This document shows positions 2,587 to 49,271 of a stretch of 56,457 nucleotides of DNA, piece after piece. Source of the stretch: an uncultured bacterium (GTDB lineage: Bacteria; Patescibacteriota; Microgenomatia; UBA1400; UBA12108). Both the position numbers and the translations under genes were made by a program. The stretch's first letter is position 1. Each line of letters opens with the position of its first letter. The notes beneath the pieces were generated by a model. That model saw only the letters and a list, made by a program, of their open reading frames with translations, did no database searches and was not told where the DNA came from. The stretch is from the NCBI GenBank assembly GCA_903945195.1, contig CAJAUT010000027.1, forward strand, positions 1 through 56,457, given 5' to 3'.

Positions 2587-4329
<1,743 letters not shown>

Positions 4330-4356
4330 CTATTTATTGAGGGAATTGCAGGGAAT

Positions 4357-4396
4357 GTCGGTAAATGTCGGTAAATGTCGGTAAATGTCGGTAAAT
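4357..4396. repeat. Perfect 10-bp tandem repeat GTCGGTAAAT x4
   Basis: Read directly; lies between the Fic tail and fcl. Confidence 0.97.
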
Positions 4397-5863: not shown

Positions 5864-6655
5864 CTATTTCTTGAGGAGATTATAGATTGTACGAACTATA
5901 TCAGAGTGTATCTTGTGGAGTGAAATCTCCCATGGTTTTGCCCCGTTTTCTTTTAAGGTGATCAAACCTTCTGCCATAAGCTTGTCGCGACTAGTCTCGC
6001 TTTTACTGTCTGGCTGGGCGCGGAAACCTGAGAGGACTACCTTTAGATCGTGAGGTTTGTAGTATTTGGCTAGTCGCAGCCAGTAGTCGTAGTCCATCAC
6101 ATAGCGATACTTTACGTTGAATTCCCCTACTTTCTCCCAAGCATTGCGTGACCAAAAAGTAGAAGGTTGAGGCAGCATAGAGTCTGCAATGCGGAGTGTC
6201 GTGGGTGAGTACAGCGCCATGAGGAAGCGCTTGTAGCCTCTTACCAGCCAACCACCATGATGTGGCCTGCCCTGCTCGTCTATCACTATGCAGTCACCAG
6301 TGATCCAGTCGGCGGAAGTAGTAGCATAGTACTCTCCTACAGCTTTTAGAGTACCAGGCATATAGACATCGTCGGAGTTGAGATAGGCAAGTACTTCGCC
6401 CTTAGCTTTTCTTAAACCTTTGTTGATGGCATCTGTTTGACCAGCGTCTTTTTTGCTTTCCCATTTGATTTTGTCGCCGTAGCTTTTGAGGATCTCTACC
6501 GTACCGTCAGTCGAGCCACCATCCATGACAAAGTATTCGAAGTTTGGATAATCCTGGGATAGTACTGAGTCTATCGTGGCGCGGATAAACTGCGCTTGGT
6601 TGTAACTGGGGGTGACGATACTAATTAGTGGCAAGTTCTTCAAGTTCATAAAGTC
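5864..6655 (-). CDS. Glycosyltransferase family 2
   Basis: ISIVTPSYNQAQFIRATIDSVLSQDYPNFEYFVMDGGSTDGT; track start at 6661 is the repeat-derived TTG. Confidence 0.93.
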   Translation of the reverse strand, partial: DFMNLKNLPLISIVTPSYNQAQFIRATIDSVLSQDYPNFEYFVMDGGSTDGTVEILKSYGDKIKWESKKDAGQTDAINKGLRKAKGEVLAYLNSDDVYMPGTLKAVGEYYATTSADWITGDCIVIDEQGRPHHGGWLVRGYKRFLMALYSPTTLRIADSMLPQPSTFWSRNAWEKVGEFNVKYRYVMDYDYWLRLAKYYKPHDLKVVLSGFRAQPDSKSETSRDKLMAEGLITLKENGAKPWEISLHKIHSDIVRTIYNLLKK

Positions 6656-6668
6656 CGTCAAGTTTTTT
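6626..6668. repeat. 9-bp degenerate tandem array: GTTCTTCAA GTTCATAAA GTCCGTCAA plus partial flanks
   Basis: Read directly; contains the stop of the DUF2304 gene and the start of the GT2 gene. Confidence 0.85.
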
Positions 6669-6984
6669 GATCCATGGCGCGATCACGCACTATACGGTCC
6701 AATTTCGCGCGCAGTTTGTTGATCTGGATACGATTTTCGATCATTACTACGCCTACAAACATGAGTGAGACTATGACAATGATGTCTGTGAGGCGATCTA
6801 CTTTAAACAACCCTCTGACCAGATCTGCCGTGGATCTGAATGTTACGACAATTCCAAGTGCGATAAGAACTATAGACCAAACAATAGCCTCTACTTTTGG
6901 AAGTTCGTTCTTTTTGTAGTGAATGCGCACGACATAAAGCATGACCAAGATAAAAGTGACCGATAAAATTTGAATTCCAATCAT
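6658..6984 (-). CDS. DUF2304-like small membrane protein
   Basis: About 108 aa, 3 TM segments, charged C-terminal tail, adjacent to a GT2 gene as is usual for DUF2304. Confidence 0.7.
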   Translation of the reverse strand: MIGIQILSVTFILVMLYVVRIHYKKNELPKVEAIVWSIVLIALGIVVTFRSTADLVRGLFKVDRLTDIIVIVSLMFVGVVMIENRIQINKLRAKLDRIVRDRAMDQKT

Positions 6985-6988
6985 GTTA

Positions 6989-7024
6989 GTCCTTCAAGTC
7001 CATAAAGTTTATAAAGTTCATAAA
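6989..7024. repeat. 9-bp degenerate tandem array: GTCCTTCAA GTCCATAAA GTTTATAAA GTTCATAAA
   Basis: Read directly; contains the TGA stop of the four-helix-bundle gene. Confidence 0.9.
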
Positions 7025-7371
7025 GTACGGAGGCTAGTAATAAAGCCAGAAAGCAACTTACTAATCTCTATAGTCATATTGTAATACAGTTCATACTCTT
7101 TTTGATTAAAATACCCAAGTTTGTTACCTAATACAAGCATAGATCTGGTTTCTCCGCACGACCCTTTGGCAATATATAGAAAATTCATAAAATCTTTGTT
7201 TGAATGACGCTCAAATCCCTCAGCAATATTATTCATTATCGAGACAGATGCCCGTTGGATTTGATCTTTAAAACTATAGTCCTTACTTGACTTTAAAACC
7301 TTGTATATTCCAACCGTTAACTCACTTGCCTTCTTCCAAGATAGTATGTCTTCAAATCTTTCTATTTTCAT
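7018..7371 (-). CDS. Four-helix-bundle protein, S23/IVP (23S rRNA intervening sequence) family
   Basis: FEDILSWKKASELTVGIYK...FKDQIQRASVSIMNNIAEGFER. Confidence 0.92.
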   Translation of the reverse strand: MKIERFEDILSWKKASELTVGIYKVLKSSKDYSFKDQIQRASVSIMNNIAEGFERHSNKDFMNFLYIAKGSCGETRSMLVLGNKLGYFNQKEYELYYNMTIEISKLLSGFITSLRTL

Positions 7372-7377
7372 AGATTC

Positions 7378-7404
7378 ACTTGATGAACTTGACGAACTTT
7401 ATTA
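7378..7404. repeat. 9-bp array in inverted orientation: ACTTGATGA ACTTGACGA ACTTTATTA
   Basis: Read directly; the opposite-strand form of the 6989-7024 array. Confidence 0.85.
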
Positions 7405-7416
7405 ACTTTTAACTAA

Positions 7417-8079
7417 CTAGTTCCATAACCAATATGGCAATTTTAGCAGAATTTTGGCGGCATCGAGCAGATTAAAACCGTATTCTTTGTCATGATAGAC
7501 GGTAGAGATAGGAACCTCGGTATAAGATAGCTTGCCCTTGGCTATGCGGACCGCTATCTCTGTCTCTACTTCGTAGCCTGTACTATGCCATTTGAGAGTT
7601 CTATAGGCGGACTTGGTAAAAGCTTTAAAGCCTGAGGGAATATCGGCAATATAGCTACCAAAAAGAATATTGATCAGGATGGACATACCTTTGTTACCTA
7701 GCATGCGCATGAGAGGCATCTTGGCGTCCATTTGACGTACTCCCAGTACCACACCTGCGCCTTTTTTTAGCGCTTTTTCAAAAAGAGAAATATCTTCGAC
7801 TATGTGCTGGTCGTCCCCGTCCATGATGATGACAGCATCTGCCCCAAGCTTGGCAAAGGCATATTCACAACCAGTTTTTAATGCAGATCCTTTACCTAGA
7901 TTTACAAGGTGAGAGAGACAAATGACTCCCTTGGATTTGACCACGTCGCAGGTCTTGTCTAGCGAGCCATCGTCTACCACCACGACATCTTTTGTATATG
8001 TCAAAAGCTTGTCCAAAAATTTAGCTATGTAGCGGGATTCGTTGTATGCAGGGACTACCACAATAAGTTTCATGTTCAT
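7417..8079 (-). CDS. Glycosyltransferase family 2 (dolichol-phosphate mannosyltransferase-like)
   Basis: LIVVVPAYNESRYIAKFLDKL...VVDDGSLDKT...MDGDDQH. Confidence 0.92.
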   Translation of the reverse strand: MNMKLIVVVPAYNESRYIAKFLDKLLTYTKDVVVVDDGSLDKTCDVVKSKGVICLSHLVNLGKGSALKTGCEYAFAKLGADAVIIMDGDDQHIVEDISLFEKALKKGAGVVLGVRQMDAKMPLMRMLGNKGMSILINILFGSYIADIPSGFKAFTKSAYRTLKWHSTGYEVETEIAVRIAKGKLSYTEVPISTVYHDKEYGFNLLDAAKILLKLPYWLWN

Positions 8080-8108
8080 AAAGTTATCAAGTCCTTCAAG
8101 TTATTTTT
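8074..8108. repeat. 9-bp degenerate array with one 8-nt unit: GTTCATAAA GTTATCAA GTCCTTCAA GTTATTTTT
   Basis: Read directly; contains the stop of the 8101..9732 gene and the start of the GT2 gene. Confidence 0.85.
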
Positions 8109-23153: not shown

Positions 23154-23174
23154 ATTTATATCCTATCACTTTAT

Positions 23175-23210
23175 GGTTACTACCATTATTTGAATCATGA
23201 TAGTATCAAC
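23175..23210. repeat. Degenerate palindromic element (left flank of the deaminase gene)
   Basis: ggttactaccattatttgaatcatgatagtatcaac; matches 23662-23695 by eye. Confidence 0.75.
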
Positions 23211-23646
23211 TAATTCGCTTATACAATGAGTCGATACACTCCTGGTGCATGTACTGATTTATGATTGGTGGATTAATTTTATTTTCTACTAGTGATTCTA
23301 TTGTGACCCTAATCCTCTTATTTTCTGGATCAATATCTCCCATTGTCGCACCGTATACAATCCGACCTACTTTTGCATAGATTAGTGCTCCTGCACACAT
23401 AGTGCAAGGTTCGCATGTCGTATAGACAGTACAACTGTAAATATTTTTATCATCCATTTTTTGTTCGGCTAAAAGGAGAGCTTTAATTTCTGCATGAGAT
23501 GTTATTTTTTTATCTTGATGCTGTGAATTGTATGATTCTGAAATAATTTGATTATCTTTTACAATAACTACCCCTACTGGAATTTCTTCACTAGATTTTT
23601 TGGCTATATCAATAGCCCTTAACATATATTTTTCGTCATTTATCAT
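23206..23646 (-). CDS. Nucleoside/tRNA adenosine deaminase-family protein (CDA fold)
   Basis: SHAEIKALL and CEPCTMCAGALIYAKVGRIVYG zinc-site motifs. Confidence 0.92.
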   Translation of the reverse strand: MINDEKYMLRAIDIAKKSSEEIPVGVVIVKDNQIISESYNSQHQDKKITSHAEIKALLLAEQKMDDKNIYSCTVYTTCEPCTMCAGALIYAKVGRIVYGATMGDIDPENKRIRVTIESLVENKINPPIINQYMHQECIDSLYKRIS

Positions 23647-23661
23647 AATATTTATTACTTT

Positions 23662-23695
23662 AGTTACTACTATGATTCGAATCAGGGTAGTAACT
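23662..23695. repeat. Palindromic element (right flank of the deaminase gene): AGTTACTAC TA TGATTCGAATCA GG GTAGTAACT
   Basis: 9-bp outer arms and a perfect 12-bp inner palindrome, read directly. Confidence 0.88.
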
Positions 23696-24485
23696 ATTTG
23701 ATAGTTATGTTTTGTTTTTTATTGAGGTTCTTTTTGGATTGCAGTTCGTAGAGTTTGGCGTAGGAGATAAAGACCGAAAAACCCTGATACATAGATTGGA
23801 TGAGACCGATTTTTGGATCAAGCAATCCTTTTTTAAATACTCCCCTACGCAAGGTCTCCATCCACCATTTGCGCATGAGGGTGAGGCCAGTTACTGGAGC
23901 CATGCTGCCGTCATAAAATTGCTGAGCTTCTATGTCAGAGTAACGATTGGTTTTGGCAACCATCTGCGTAAGACTCTCGTCTTTGTGATGCTGCATGGCA
24001 AAAGTGGTCTTGATAGTACTACCTTTGACTACTGGCATACTGTGAATATTTTCACCCCATGACACGAAATCTTTGGTACGAATGAGTCTGACCACATAGT
24101 CTCTCTCCCAGCCGCCATGATACATAGGATATCCGAGACTGTAGTTGTCGCGGCCGATGGCGTAGGCACTGCAAGAAGCTAGATTTTCGGTGATAGCTAA
24201 GATCTCACCTGATAAGTCAGGTGTGATGATCTCGTCATAGTCCATGATAAGTACCCAGTCCCCACTGGCTTCTTGCACCTCTAACTGTCTGATAGTTTCG
24301 ACAATTTTGGGGGTTTTGACATTTACGACCTTAGCTTTGTATTTGGCAAAAAGGTCTAGCGCTGCCTTATCTTTGCGCTCCATGTTGAAGATGATGAGTT
24401 CGTCTGCAAATGAGACACTTTTGAGCATCGCTTCAAAGATAGAAAGTGAGTCTTCACGGGCAATTTGCGTACTAACGCTGAGCAT
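23694..24485 (-). CDS. Glycosyltransferase family 2 (KdtX/WaaE-like)
   Basis: MLSVSTQIAREDSLSIFEAMLKSV...WVLIMDYDEIITPDL. Confidence 0.85.
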   Translation of the reverse strand: MLSVSTQIAREDSLSIFEAMLKSVSFADELIIFNMERKDKAALDLFAKYKAKVVNVKTPKIVETIRQLEVQEASGDWVLIMDYDEIITPDLSGEILAITENLASCSAYAIGRDNYSLGYPMYHGGWERDYVVRLIRTKDFVSWGENIHSMPVVKGSTIKTTFAMQHHKDESLTQMVAKTNRYSDIEAQQFYDGSMAPVTGLTLMRKWWMETLRRGVFKKGLLDPKIGLIQSMYQGFSVFISYAKLYELQSKKNLNKKQNITIK

Positions 24486-42871: not shown

Positions 42872-44059
42872 TTATTTCTTTTTCCAGACAAATCTAGAGT
42901 AGGCAAAGAAGTTCCAGAACATACCGATCAGGATACCAACTATAGAAAAGACCATGCCTGTATCTACAGTTAAGTTGAAAGTTGAAAGTTGAAAGTTGAA
43001 AAGTGTAAAGAGACCGATAAACTTTTCACCCATAAAGGCGATAGCCATTTGAATGAGAATAGAACCAGCCGAAGCTAAATTGAACTGTAAGAATTTACCC
43101 GGGATCTGGGTTACTTTGAGTTTGCGGTCGGCAAAAGTCCAGAGATTTGAAAGAGTAAAGTTGGAGACTATGGCTGTCTCGATGGAGAGAAAATTGGCTA
43201 GCTGGTAACCTAGACCCATGCGGTAGAAATATAAAGCTGTGATCTGAACTAGCGTACCCGTGCCGCCTGTGACCAAGAATTTGAAGATGCGACTATTTAC
43301 TATCTCTGACATCCGAACTTTCATAATGTACCTCATGGTATTAAATATGTATTCTGGACCTAGTTTGGATGCTCCACTTGTGCGGTCACGGAAAACAAAT
43401 GGAACCTCACTAACTTTATACCCTTTTTGGATAGTTTTCACTAAGAAACCTATCTGCCAAGTATAGCCATAGAACGCCGCGTTGTTCATGATTTTGAGGA
43501 TCTCTTGCACGACCGGAGTGCGGATAGCCCGATAGCCTGTCGTCCAGTCGTGAACTTTGAAATTGGCCATGACTACACGGATATAAATATTGCCTACGAC
43601 TGAAAGGAATTTGCGATACCATGGCCAGTGCGATGGGATACCGCCTCCTCTTATATATCTAGACCCTAGGACTAGGTCAGAACCAGCTGCGATACTAGCC
43701 AGCATAGCTGGGATGACGGAAGGATCGTGCTGGAGATCGGCGTCAAACTGAAAGATGATATCTGCTTTGTATTTGTCTATGGCTACGAAAAATCCCTTTT
43801 TGTAGGCATGACCTAGACCACCTTTGTGCTTGTTGTTTAAGATATGTACAAAGGGATACTTTTTCATCAAACCGTCAATCACTTTGCTGGTCCCATCAGG
43901 AGAATTGTCGTCTACAAACAAGATATGCATGTCGTAAGACTGGCAAGATTTAAAAACTTTGGCTAGGGCCACGGTCGTAGGAATGACGTTTGCCGCCTCG
44001 TTGTAGGTGGGGATGACTATCACGACTTTAGTTAGTGTTGAGTTCATAAAGTTCATAAA
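42872..44059 (-). CDS. GT2 (DPM1-like) fused to a C-terminal GtrA-like membrane domain
   Basis: VVIVIPTYNEAANVIPT...LFVDDNSPDGT...FDADLQHDPS; C-terminal FLVTGGTGTLVQITALYFYRMGLGYQLANFLSIETAIVSNF is GtrA-like. Confidence 0.9.
   Translation of the reverse strand, partial: FMNFMNSTLTKVVIVIPTYNEAANVIPTTVALAKVFKSCQSYDMHILFVDDNSPDGTSKVIDGLMKKYPFVHILNNKHKGGLGHAYKKGFFVAIDKYKADIIFQFDADLQHDPSVIPAMLASIAAGSDLVLGSRYIRGGGIPSHWPWYRKFLSVVGNIYIRVVMANFKVHDWTTGYRAIRTPVVQEILKIMNNAAFYGYTWQIGFLVKTIQKGYKVSEVPFVFRDRTSGASKLGPEYIFNTMRYIMKVRMSEIVNSRIFKFLVTGGTGTLVQITALYFYRMGLGYQLANFLSIETAIVSNFTLSNLWTFADRKLKVTQIPGKFLQFNLASAGSILIQMAIAFMGEKFIGLFTLFNFQLSTFNLTVDTGMVFSIVGILIGMFWNFFAYSRFVWKKK
42973..43000. repeat. Perfect heptanucleotide repeat AGTTGAA x4 inside the GT2-GtrA ORF
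   Basis: Read directly. Confidence 0.97.
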
Positions 44060-44086
44060 GTTTATCAAGTCTATTGAGTTTTATTT
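44042..44086. repeat. 9-bp tandem array: GTTCATAAA GTTCATAAA GTTTATCAA GTCTATTGA GTTTTATTT
   Basis: Read directly; contains the UXS stop codon and the GT2-GtrA start codons. Confidence 0.9.
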
Positions 44087-45030
44087 TGATAATATTCTAA
44101 TGTCTTTTTCATACCAGTTTTAAAGTCTATAGTAGGCTCCCAATTTAATAAGTTTTTGGCTTTTGTGATATCTGGCTTTCTTTTCTTTGGATCGTCAGGT
44201 GGTGTGTCTATATATTCTTTGGTTAACTCTTTGCCTATGATACTTTCAAATTCTTTGATCGCATCAGCTAGAGTAAACTCGACTGGATTGCCGAGGTTGA
44301 TGACCTGCCCAATCGCCGACTCTGTTTCGTAGACTTTGATGATGCCAGATAAGAGATCGTCGATATAACAGAATGAGCGTGTAGAGCTACCATCGCCAAA
44401 CATTTTGAATGGTTTATTGTTTATGTGTGAGTCGATCAGATTGATCGTGAATCTACCATCATCTAGTCTCATGTGAGGACCGTAAGTATTGAAGATGCGG
44501 ATCACCTTGATCAAAGTGCCACCTGTCCTATTGTAGGCAAATGCTAGGGACTCCATGGCACGCTTACCTTCGTCATAGCAACTACGAGGGCCTACAGAGT
44601 TCACATTGCCCCAGTAAGATTCTGGCTGTGGATGAACGAGTGGGTCACCATAAACTTCACTTGTGGACGCAAAGATGATCTGACACATGTTGGCGTGGGC
44701 TAGCTCTAGCATACGCTGACTGCCTAAGACATTTACCATCATGGTCTCTACCGGGTATCGCATATAAGAGACAGGGCTCTGTGGATTGGGGCTAGCGGGA
44801 CAGGCAAAGTGAAAAATAGCATCTAGATGCTCTTTAAATTCTGGCAGTGGCTGGCATACGTCGTGTTCAATAAGGCGAAAGTTTTTGTTGCCTTCGAACT
44901 CTTTGATATTGTCACGCGAACCTGACAAAAAATTGTCGACACAGATGACGCTGTCACCCTGATCCAAAAAATATTTACAAAGATGGGAGCCGATAAACCC
45001 TGCCCCACCTGTGATCAAGATTTTTTTCAT
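44071..45030 (-). CDS. UDP-glucuronate decarboxylase-like (UDP-xylose synthase) SDR epimerase
   Basis: ILITGGAGFIGSHLCKYFLDQGDSVICVDNFLSGSRDNI...FHFACPASP...TSEVYGDP. Confidence 0.88.
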   Translation of the reverse strand: MKKILITGGAGFIGSHLCKYFLDQGDSVICVDNFLSGSRDNIKEFEGNKNFRLIEHDVCQPLPEFKEHLDAIFHFACPASPNPQSPVSYMRYPVETMMVNVLGSQRMLELAHANMCQIIFASTSEVYGDPLVHPQPESYWGNVNSVGPRSCYDEGKRAMESLAFAYNRTGGTLIKVIRIFNTYGPHMRLDDGRFTINLIDSHINNKPFKMFGDGSSTRSFCYIDDLLSGIIKVYETESAIGQVINLGNPVEFTLADAIKEFESIIGKELTKEYIDTPPDDPKKRKPDITKAKNLLNWEPTIDFKTGMKKTLEYYQNKTQ

Positions 45031-48347: not shown

Positions 48348-49271
48348 TTATAACCTTTGTAGTAATTCTACACTGGATGTTTCCAATTTGGATACTACAA
48401 ACCACTTTTTACCCAAATCTTTGATTGAAGCTCCCAGATGATAGATATTTGCGTGGTCTATGATCAAAAAACGATCGTGAGAGGTGGAAAGTTCTTTTAT
48501 ATCGATTTTTGGATACTGAGCATTGAATTTATTAAGATCTAGAGATAGTACGGTACTGATATTTTTACAGTAAATTGTAATAGAGACTCCAGGTCTACGC
48601 TTGATGAAAAGAGATAATACCTCTTCATTTATATAGTTGTCGATCAATTTGATATCTTTTTTGGCGCTTCGGATAAGTTTTGAGATAAATATATGTGCGT
48701 CAAATACGGTTCCTTCAAAATAGAGTTTTTGTTTGGGGATGTCATCATTTGAAGCTAAAGCATCTAGGACTTCATTGATTTTAGCTTCCGTTTTAAATTG
48801 TTTTTGCTCGACAATGTCTAGTCTCGTAAAGAGATGAGCATTGGCCCCGATCATTTTGCGAAGTAATACAAACTCTGTCATGATCTCGATACTGACTCGC
48901 ACGGCGACGTCGCTACGTAAAACTCCAGATAACATGGCCACCCCTTGCTCCGTAAATGCATATGGTAATTTTCTTCGACCACCATGATCAATGGTCGCAA
49001 ATTGCGCCCATTGATTTAAGGTCACATTTTGTGACCTTTGACTTGAAGTCACAAATTGTGACTTCAAGTTTAAATATTCATCTCTTGTTAACTGAAAGCA
49101 AAATTGCTCTGGAAATCTATCAATATTTCTTTTGACGGTTTGATTTAGTACTTTGGTTTGTACTTGGTAAAGCTTTGCTAGATCTTCATCCAACATGACC
49201 TGCACTCCCCTGATAGTATAAATGTGTGAGCGAATATCTGATAAATCTAAATTGAGAGCCGACAGCTTCAC
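48348..49271 (-). CDS. ORF6N DNA-binding domain fused to a PLD-like C-terminal domain
   Basis: IYTIRGVQVMLDEDLAKLYQVQTKVLNQTVKRN...GGRRKLPYAFTEQGVAMLSGVL (ORF6N); STSHDRFLIIDHANIYHLGASIKDLGKKW (PLD-like). Confidence 0.88.
   Translation of the reverse strand: MKLSALNLDLSDIRSHIYTIRGVQVMLDEDLAKLYQVQTKVLNQTVKRNIDRFPEQFCFQLTRDEYLNLKSQFVTSSQRSQNVTLNQWAQFATIDHGGRRKLPYAFTEQGVAMLSGVLRSDVAVRVSIEIMTEFVLLRKMIGANAHLFTRLDIVEQKQFKTEAKINEVLDALASNDDIPKQKLYFEGTVFDAHIFISKLIRSAKKDIKLIDNYINEEVLSLFIKRRPGVSITIYCKNISTVLSLDLNKFNAQYPKIDIKELSTSHDRFLIIDHANIYHLGASIKDLGKKWFVVSKLETSSVELLQRL

Follow-up and report, generated by a model that had tools for sequence, protein, structure and literature searches.

The intervening sequences (IVSs) of rRNA genes in Leptospira and Coxiella carry S23, have complementary ends, and are sporadically distributed, and earlier authors suspected them of being mobile (PMC4990558). 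They consist of one S23 open reading frame (ORF) between inverted ends, span about 430 nucleotides (nt), and contain no further gene; in Coxiella, helix 45 of the 23S rRNA contains the 28-bp stem into which the ends pair (PMC4990558). An element of the same design, situated between the protein-coding genes GT2 and DUF2304 and not, like an IVS that RNase III removes, in a 23S rRNA helix, occurs in the 56,457-nt stretch of DNA analyzed here (the window; contig CAJAUT010000027.1 of an uncultured Patescibacteriota bacterium), as does a 9-bp tandem array at the junction of an SDR-family gene and a GT2-GtrA gene, whose origin is the subject of this report. Environmental genomes often contain S23 ("four helix bundle protein") genes, for which, to our knowledge, no function is described beyond their occurrence in rRNA IVSs.

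The junction array is probably a solo repeat arm of the kind that flanks S23 genes; S23 elements would form a family that is REPIN/RAYT-like and related to the rRNA IVSs. Such arrays are best read as the footprints of tiny mobile elements of an apparently undescribed family, which have presumably moved, and not as purpose-built punctuation. Underlying this reading are the anatomy of the elements, their dispersal throughout the genome, the pattern of occupied and empty conserved sites, and the matching of S23 subfamilies to arm units. A full-text search of the literature (bioRxiv and many subscription journals lay outside it) returned no account of S23 genes flanked by tandem-array arms or accompanied by dispersed copies.

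ORFs of the same protein family (23S_rRNA_IVP) are reported within rRNA insertions of Patescibacteria, there termed candidate phyla radiation (CPR) bacteria; that study was limited to rRNA genes, and a term search of it found no mention of flanking inverted or tandem repeats (PMC11270868). In REPIN/RAYT systems, a gene is bracketed by inverted repeats, many hairpin or single extragenic copies lack the gene, and protein and repeat are matched (PMC3116915, PMC8049555). A bracketed gene and dispersed extragenic inverted repeats are likewise found in S23 elements. The S23 repeat, however, is a tandem array and not the single palindrome of a REPIN, and the GTAG-type ends of RAYTs were not seen. Moreover, the bracketed gene encodes a four-helix bundle without an HUH/Y1 domain, and the Y1 genes lie elsewhere in the genome.

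Avd, the accessory protein of diversity-generating retroelements, resembles S23: it forms a small, basic pentamer of four-helix bundles and binds nucleic acid. Unlike those retroelements, the S23 system occurs in a genome (that of the window, G000) without a reverse transcriptase, an RVT_1 profile search of which gave no match.

Anatomy and dispersal of S23 elements

A complete element comprises one S23 gene between inverted arms, each of about four units of 7 to 10 bp, with TTAGTT/AACTAA at the outward end; arms of this kind that lack the gene are also found in scattered positions between genes, either paired as hairpin mini-elements or singly. The element in the window (Table 1) encloses the only S23 gene of its genome within inverted, complementary ends, as in the rRNA IVSs. 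The encoded protein scores 119 bits against PF05635 (cutoff, 33.8) and 116 against TIGR02436 (cutoff, 24), with 2gsc and 2rld as relatives in the PDB, and S23 proteins are basic (median pI, 9.0). Unlike those of rRNA IVSs, the ends of S23 elements are tandem arrays of 7- to 10-bp units, and solo and hairpin copies occur throughout the genome.

The window's genome comprises 1.05 Mb in 34 contigs, in which our uncurated gene calls cover 88% as coding. Scanning it with a unit matrix (A-C-T-T-[GT]-A-[TCA]-[AG]-[AGC]) yielded 31 arrays with more than 25 bits, whereas the reversed sequence had none, and a definition based on chains of at least four AAGT/ACTT cores spaced 7 to 10 bp apart yielded 28, against 1 in the reversed control. 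A typical array has about four units, and many finish with a 7-bp unit followed by ACTAA. The arrays are spread genome-wide without restriction to glycosyltransferase genes, and several lie in frame within genes. Two of the latter (C7:12610-12636 and C10:23965-23991) encode some 9 to 10 residues; by eye, the genes that hold them resemble those for leucyl-tRNA synthetase and an RluA-type pseudouridine synthase.

The original prediction had listed related arrays near 4261, 6626, 6989, 7378, and 8074. All five are real (Table 1), and the fourth is oriented opposite to the others, which had gone unremarked. The prediction had overlooked the S23 gene and the inverted arms, which account for the origin of the repeat, and had suggested a possible recombination site between glycosyltransferase genes. 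It had also proposed that changes in copy number preserve the reading frame, which does not hold generally, since core spacings of 7 bp (38 cases), 8 bp (5), and 10 bp (1) occur beside those of 9 bp (49).

Paired arrays are convergent in both genomes in which orientation was tallied (two pairs in G000 and six in G061) and never divergent. Hairpin mini-elements are head-to-head array pairs with a short loop; there are five in G061 under the chain definition, with more apparent by eye, and one in the window's genome, on contig C22. The three mini-elements tested adopt hairpin folds (z, −3.3 to −4.4), and the solo array at 44042 shows no significant folding (z, −0.15). Related genomes contain all three forms (S23 elements, hairpins lacking the gene, and solo arrays), and the number of array hits reaches 153 per genome (G068, the array-richest of those checked; controls, 0 to 2). 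Five or more hits were found in 27 of the 50 genomes picked for a close S23 and in 4 of 192 genomes sampled evenly over the phylum (P = 5e-18), a comparison that is not matched for taxonomy and whose counts include the arms of the S23 elements themselves.

S23 proteins and their arm units

Relatives, a phylum sample, and a set of 84,980 species genomes supplied the S23 loci, with 345 further small genes, taken from two genomes, as matched controls. Among the 126 S23 loci with both flanks, the median inverted-arm score was 33, and 58% scored at least 30; the controls had medians of 14 and 17, and 0.5 to 1.4% of them reached 30. (Mismatched flanks of S23 loci were dropped as a null, since many loci have a common unit.) Both of the top-scoring small genes in G061 encode S23, and one of them had not been preselected and has different, AT-rich arms. 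At the 82 loci with a close S23, an array in the expected orientation was present upstream in 59 and downstream in 59, as opposed to 6 and 5 in the opposite orientation and 0 to 1 for control cores.

Arm units differ among S23 proteins, and the two vary together. When the upstream arm of one locus was scored against the downstream arm of another, S23 pairs of at least 55% identity proved to have a unit in common, whereas pairs below 50% averaged about 15, the level of chance; over all pairs, S23 identity and arm similarity are correlated (Mantel r = 0.66, P = 0.001). The association spans phyla: the 1053 pairs of Patescibacteria and Bacteroidota S23s with at least 55% identity had an arm score of 26.7, versus 18.4 in the wrong orientation. 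Within Patescibacteria, the arms of divergent S23s match inside a locus (mean, 26.7) and not between loci (14.9). Because arm unit and protein evolve together, recognition of the arm units by S23, or by a complex of which it is part, is the simplest inference.

Ten S23 loci were checked for an rRNA location, and none had one. Recent, frequent transfer of S23 across phyla is not supported by the S23 tree, and as for a viral vehicle, viral contigs gave one weak, partial match only. At two loci (L100 and L173), unrelated S23 types apparently lie downstream of the same gene, which by eye has a ComM/YifB-like C terminus, hinting at preferred insertion sites.

Occupied and empty sites in relatives

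The site of the 432-bp S23 block is empty in two relatives, G005 (L219) and G002 (L218; 275 kb of this genome was covered), in which GT2 directly adjoins DUF2304, indicating that the S23 gene comes and goes together with both of its arms. A GAACTCAAG-type unit marks a second S23 family, an element of which fills a site in G047, G040, and G026 that is empty in the close species G052 and G015. These empty sites are too diverged to delimit any target-site duplication.

Solo arrays show the same pattern. The SDR/GT2-GtrA junction is conserved in four family relatives (G002, G003, G004, and G005), and the array is missing from all four; G002 couples the two genes by an ATGA overlap, and relatives without the array join them by such an overlap or a short gap. 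The start of GT2-GtrA is also array-free in the order-level relatives inspected, where homology of the upstream gene was left unchecked. At 10 array junctions of the window's genome, both flanking genes could be found in relatives, and 9 of these junctions are array-free in G002 or the family. At the tenth, the array between the PMT_2-family and GT2 genes is present in G002 and missing in G005, where the flanking genes overlap as ATGA. The repeat is thus portable, as the original prediction had it, in that the same junctions occur in relatives without an array.

Two junctions that hold an ACTT array in the window's genome carry short tandem arrays of other units in G002, which is consistent with a turnover of unit types at junctions. 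These alternative arrays, near 13.9 kb of L355 and 5.5 kb of L346, are of a TAGGTACTTA type and a TACGGAT type, the former resembling the arms of the S23 genes of G002 itself.

Proposed movement, rival explanations, and the junction array

A basic S23 oligomer would bind the repeated units, as DNA or as RNA, and would help its own element and the gene-less arms to spread through a borrowed enzyme that the element does not itself encode, much as a RAYT serves REPINs. A broader proposal, which we hold tentatively, is that S23 elements could form a distinct class of minimal mobile DNA, in which one non-enzymatic four-helix-bundle protein reads a fast-changing code of tandem units in the inverted arms of its own element and uses host enzymes to mobilize that element along with hairpin mini-elements and solo arrays. 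The class would extend over Patescibacteria, Bacteroidota, and others, and rRNA IVSs would be those copies that landed in rRNA genes. If S23 elements move, this would account for the orphan S23 genes as well as for one class of repeats scattered between genes, and rRNA IVSs would be linked to a wider mobile family. They would also offer a pairing of protein with DNA (or RNA) whose recognition code is naturally varied over many loci, and the origin and function of the S23 IVSs, at issue since the early 1990s, would become directly testable.

Several findings weigh against mobility driven by S23. The protein has no recognized catalytic domain, and in the genomes compared, no movement was seen and no mobilizing enzyme was identified. 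A reverse transcriptase is present in 4 of the 15 genomes checked and lacking in 11, and a Y1 transposase is present in 13 of them, the array-richest (G068) not included; as neither is constant over the 15, both are ruled out as a constant partner. Most copies in the window's genome are single-armed, for which an inverted-repeat element gives no direct account, and the arm test gave scores under 25 for about 29% of S23 loci. There are also arrays without a close S23 (G289 and G228) and close S23s without arrays (G125 and G226), the S23 tree largely follows phylum (6 changes), and the samples in the genome survey were unmatched, as stated above.

It is unlikely that a Y1/HUH (IS200/RAYT-type) transposase moves the hairpins and arrays, with S23 as a passenger in the loop. 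The hairpins are built like REPINs, and the Y1 genes, which number five in the window's genome, include some that are RAYT-like in length, but Y1 is common anyway, G068 has its many array hits without a Y1 match, and the arm unit tracks the S23 sequence, as would not be expected of a passenger.

The remaining rivals do not invoke transposition, and the first of them concerns the junction itself. From 44079 to 44035 on the minus strand, the array runs through five units, ACTCAATAG ACTTGATAA ACTTTATGA ACTTTATGA ACTCAACAC, followed by TAACTAAAG (Tandem Repeats Finder reports 44041-44070, with a period of 9), and the SDR stop, TAG at 44073-44071, falls within the first, degenerate unit. A 9-bp array with the stop inside it, between GT2-GtrA and the gene taken to be UXS, is therefore present as originally described. 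The GT2-GtrA frame contains TTG at 44068, where the ORF list begins, and ATGs at 44056 and 44047, all within the array. Homologues open with M-I-K-R-VVVIIPTYN or similar, just ahead of the equivalent of KVVIVIPTYN in the window, and because the outer end of the array occupies the position of their start, translation probably begins at an ATG of the array. The array does supply start codons, as had been claimed, but initiation at ATG 44056 or ATG 44047 appears more likely than at the TTG that had been proposed. Under the S23-element reading, the insertion at 44042 would have landed on the GT2-GtrA start and its ATGs would have taken over initiation, as a by-product of the landing site.

The original prediction had instead viewed the repeat as punctuation, kept because the stop and start in each unit couple neighboring genes translationally, which we regard as very unlikely. 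Arrays provide start codons at 44042, 6628, and 8067, with stops at the array edge, and the enrichment at gene boundaries that this idea called for was found: 13 of 28 arrays lie within 30 bp of a boundary in the window's genome (expected, 9%; P = 3e-7), as do 20 of 27 in G061 (P = 5e-16), where 26 of 27 are intergenic. Orientation relative to tandem genes is nevertheless 8:7 in G061 and not significantly biased in the window's genome (11:5; P = 0.21), and G061 has arrays at divergent (7) and convergent (2) junctions too, where a stop next to a start has no meaning. These counts speak against coupling as a general role. Relatives couple the same genes without the array, and the S23 link and the inverted pairs are left unaccounted for. 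Given the orientation counts, the divergent and convergent sites, and the in-frame copies inside genes, the stop/start content seems to follow from the sequence of the unit and the place of its insertion; it is put to use locally but does not seem to be the reason for which the repeat exists.

Less probable again is an ordinary minisatellite, each array having been made by local replication slippage and tolerated in gene-poor spacers. Its units are tandem and variable in number (one array in G061 has 11 cores) and the placement is intergenic, but an identical unit and terminus (ACTTNNN-ACTAA) recur at about 30 unlinked sites, usually with about four units and cleanly present or absent, and a specific relation to S23 genes holds across phyla. 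Slippage may tune the number of units. Least probable of all is that the arrays are host operator or regulatory sites of S23, acting as a DNA- or RNA-binding regulator, and not parts of a mobile element: the basic charge of S23, its coevolution with the repeat, and the copies at gene junctions would suit this, but the S23 gene and both arms come and go as one block, 9 of the 10 comparable junctions are array-free in relatives, and no conserved regulon was seen.

Table 1. S23 element, tandem arrays, and adjoining genes in the window
Feature	Position	Strand	Remarks
Complete S23 element, 432 bp (TTAGTT-arm, S23 gene, arm-ACTAAC)	6985..7416	−	Between GT2 (7417-8079) and DUF2304 (6658-6984)
S23/23S_rRNA_IVP/TIGR02436 four-helix-bundle gene	7018..7371	−	PF05635, E = 1e-34; TIGR02436; own-genome search
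Downstream arm of S23 element, 4 units	6991..7026	−	ACTT orientation on the S23 strand
Upstream arm of S23 element, 4 units	7378..7413	+	Inverted relative to the downstream arm
Solo array, five units and outer terminus ACTAA	44030..44079	−	SDR stop and GT2-GtrA starts inside; lineage-specific insertion
GT2-GtrA gene, downstream of junction array	42872..44047	−	Pfam Glycos_transf_2 and GtrA
SDR-family epimerase/dehydratase gene, upstream of junction array	44071..45030	−	Pfam Epimerase; NCBIfam; originally called UXS
Solo array, start of SDR-family gene	4272-4307	−	Matrix scan
Solo array, DUF2304/GT2 junction	6628-6663	−	Matrix scan; missing in G005 (L219)
Solo array, PMT_2-family glycosyltransferase/GT2 junction	8067-8101	−	Also in G002 (L218), not in G005 (L219)

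Other repeats are present in the window, in which an Rfam scan matched no listed RNA. Close upstream of the array at 4272-4307 lies a perfect 10-bp tandem repeat with a different unit (AATGTCGGTA, 4.3 copies, 4354-4396), and an imperfect 27-bp tandem repeat with GGTCACAAATTGCGACC-like palindromes extends over 48993-49062. A TadA/dCMP-type deaminase gene (23206-23646, minus strand) is enclosed by 33-nt inverted repeats of 82% identity (23173-23697), one arm of which is palindromic, and judged by this arrangement the locus is possibly another small mobile cassette.
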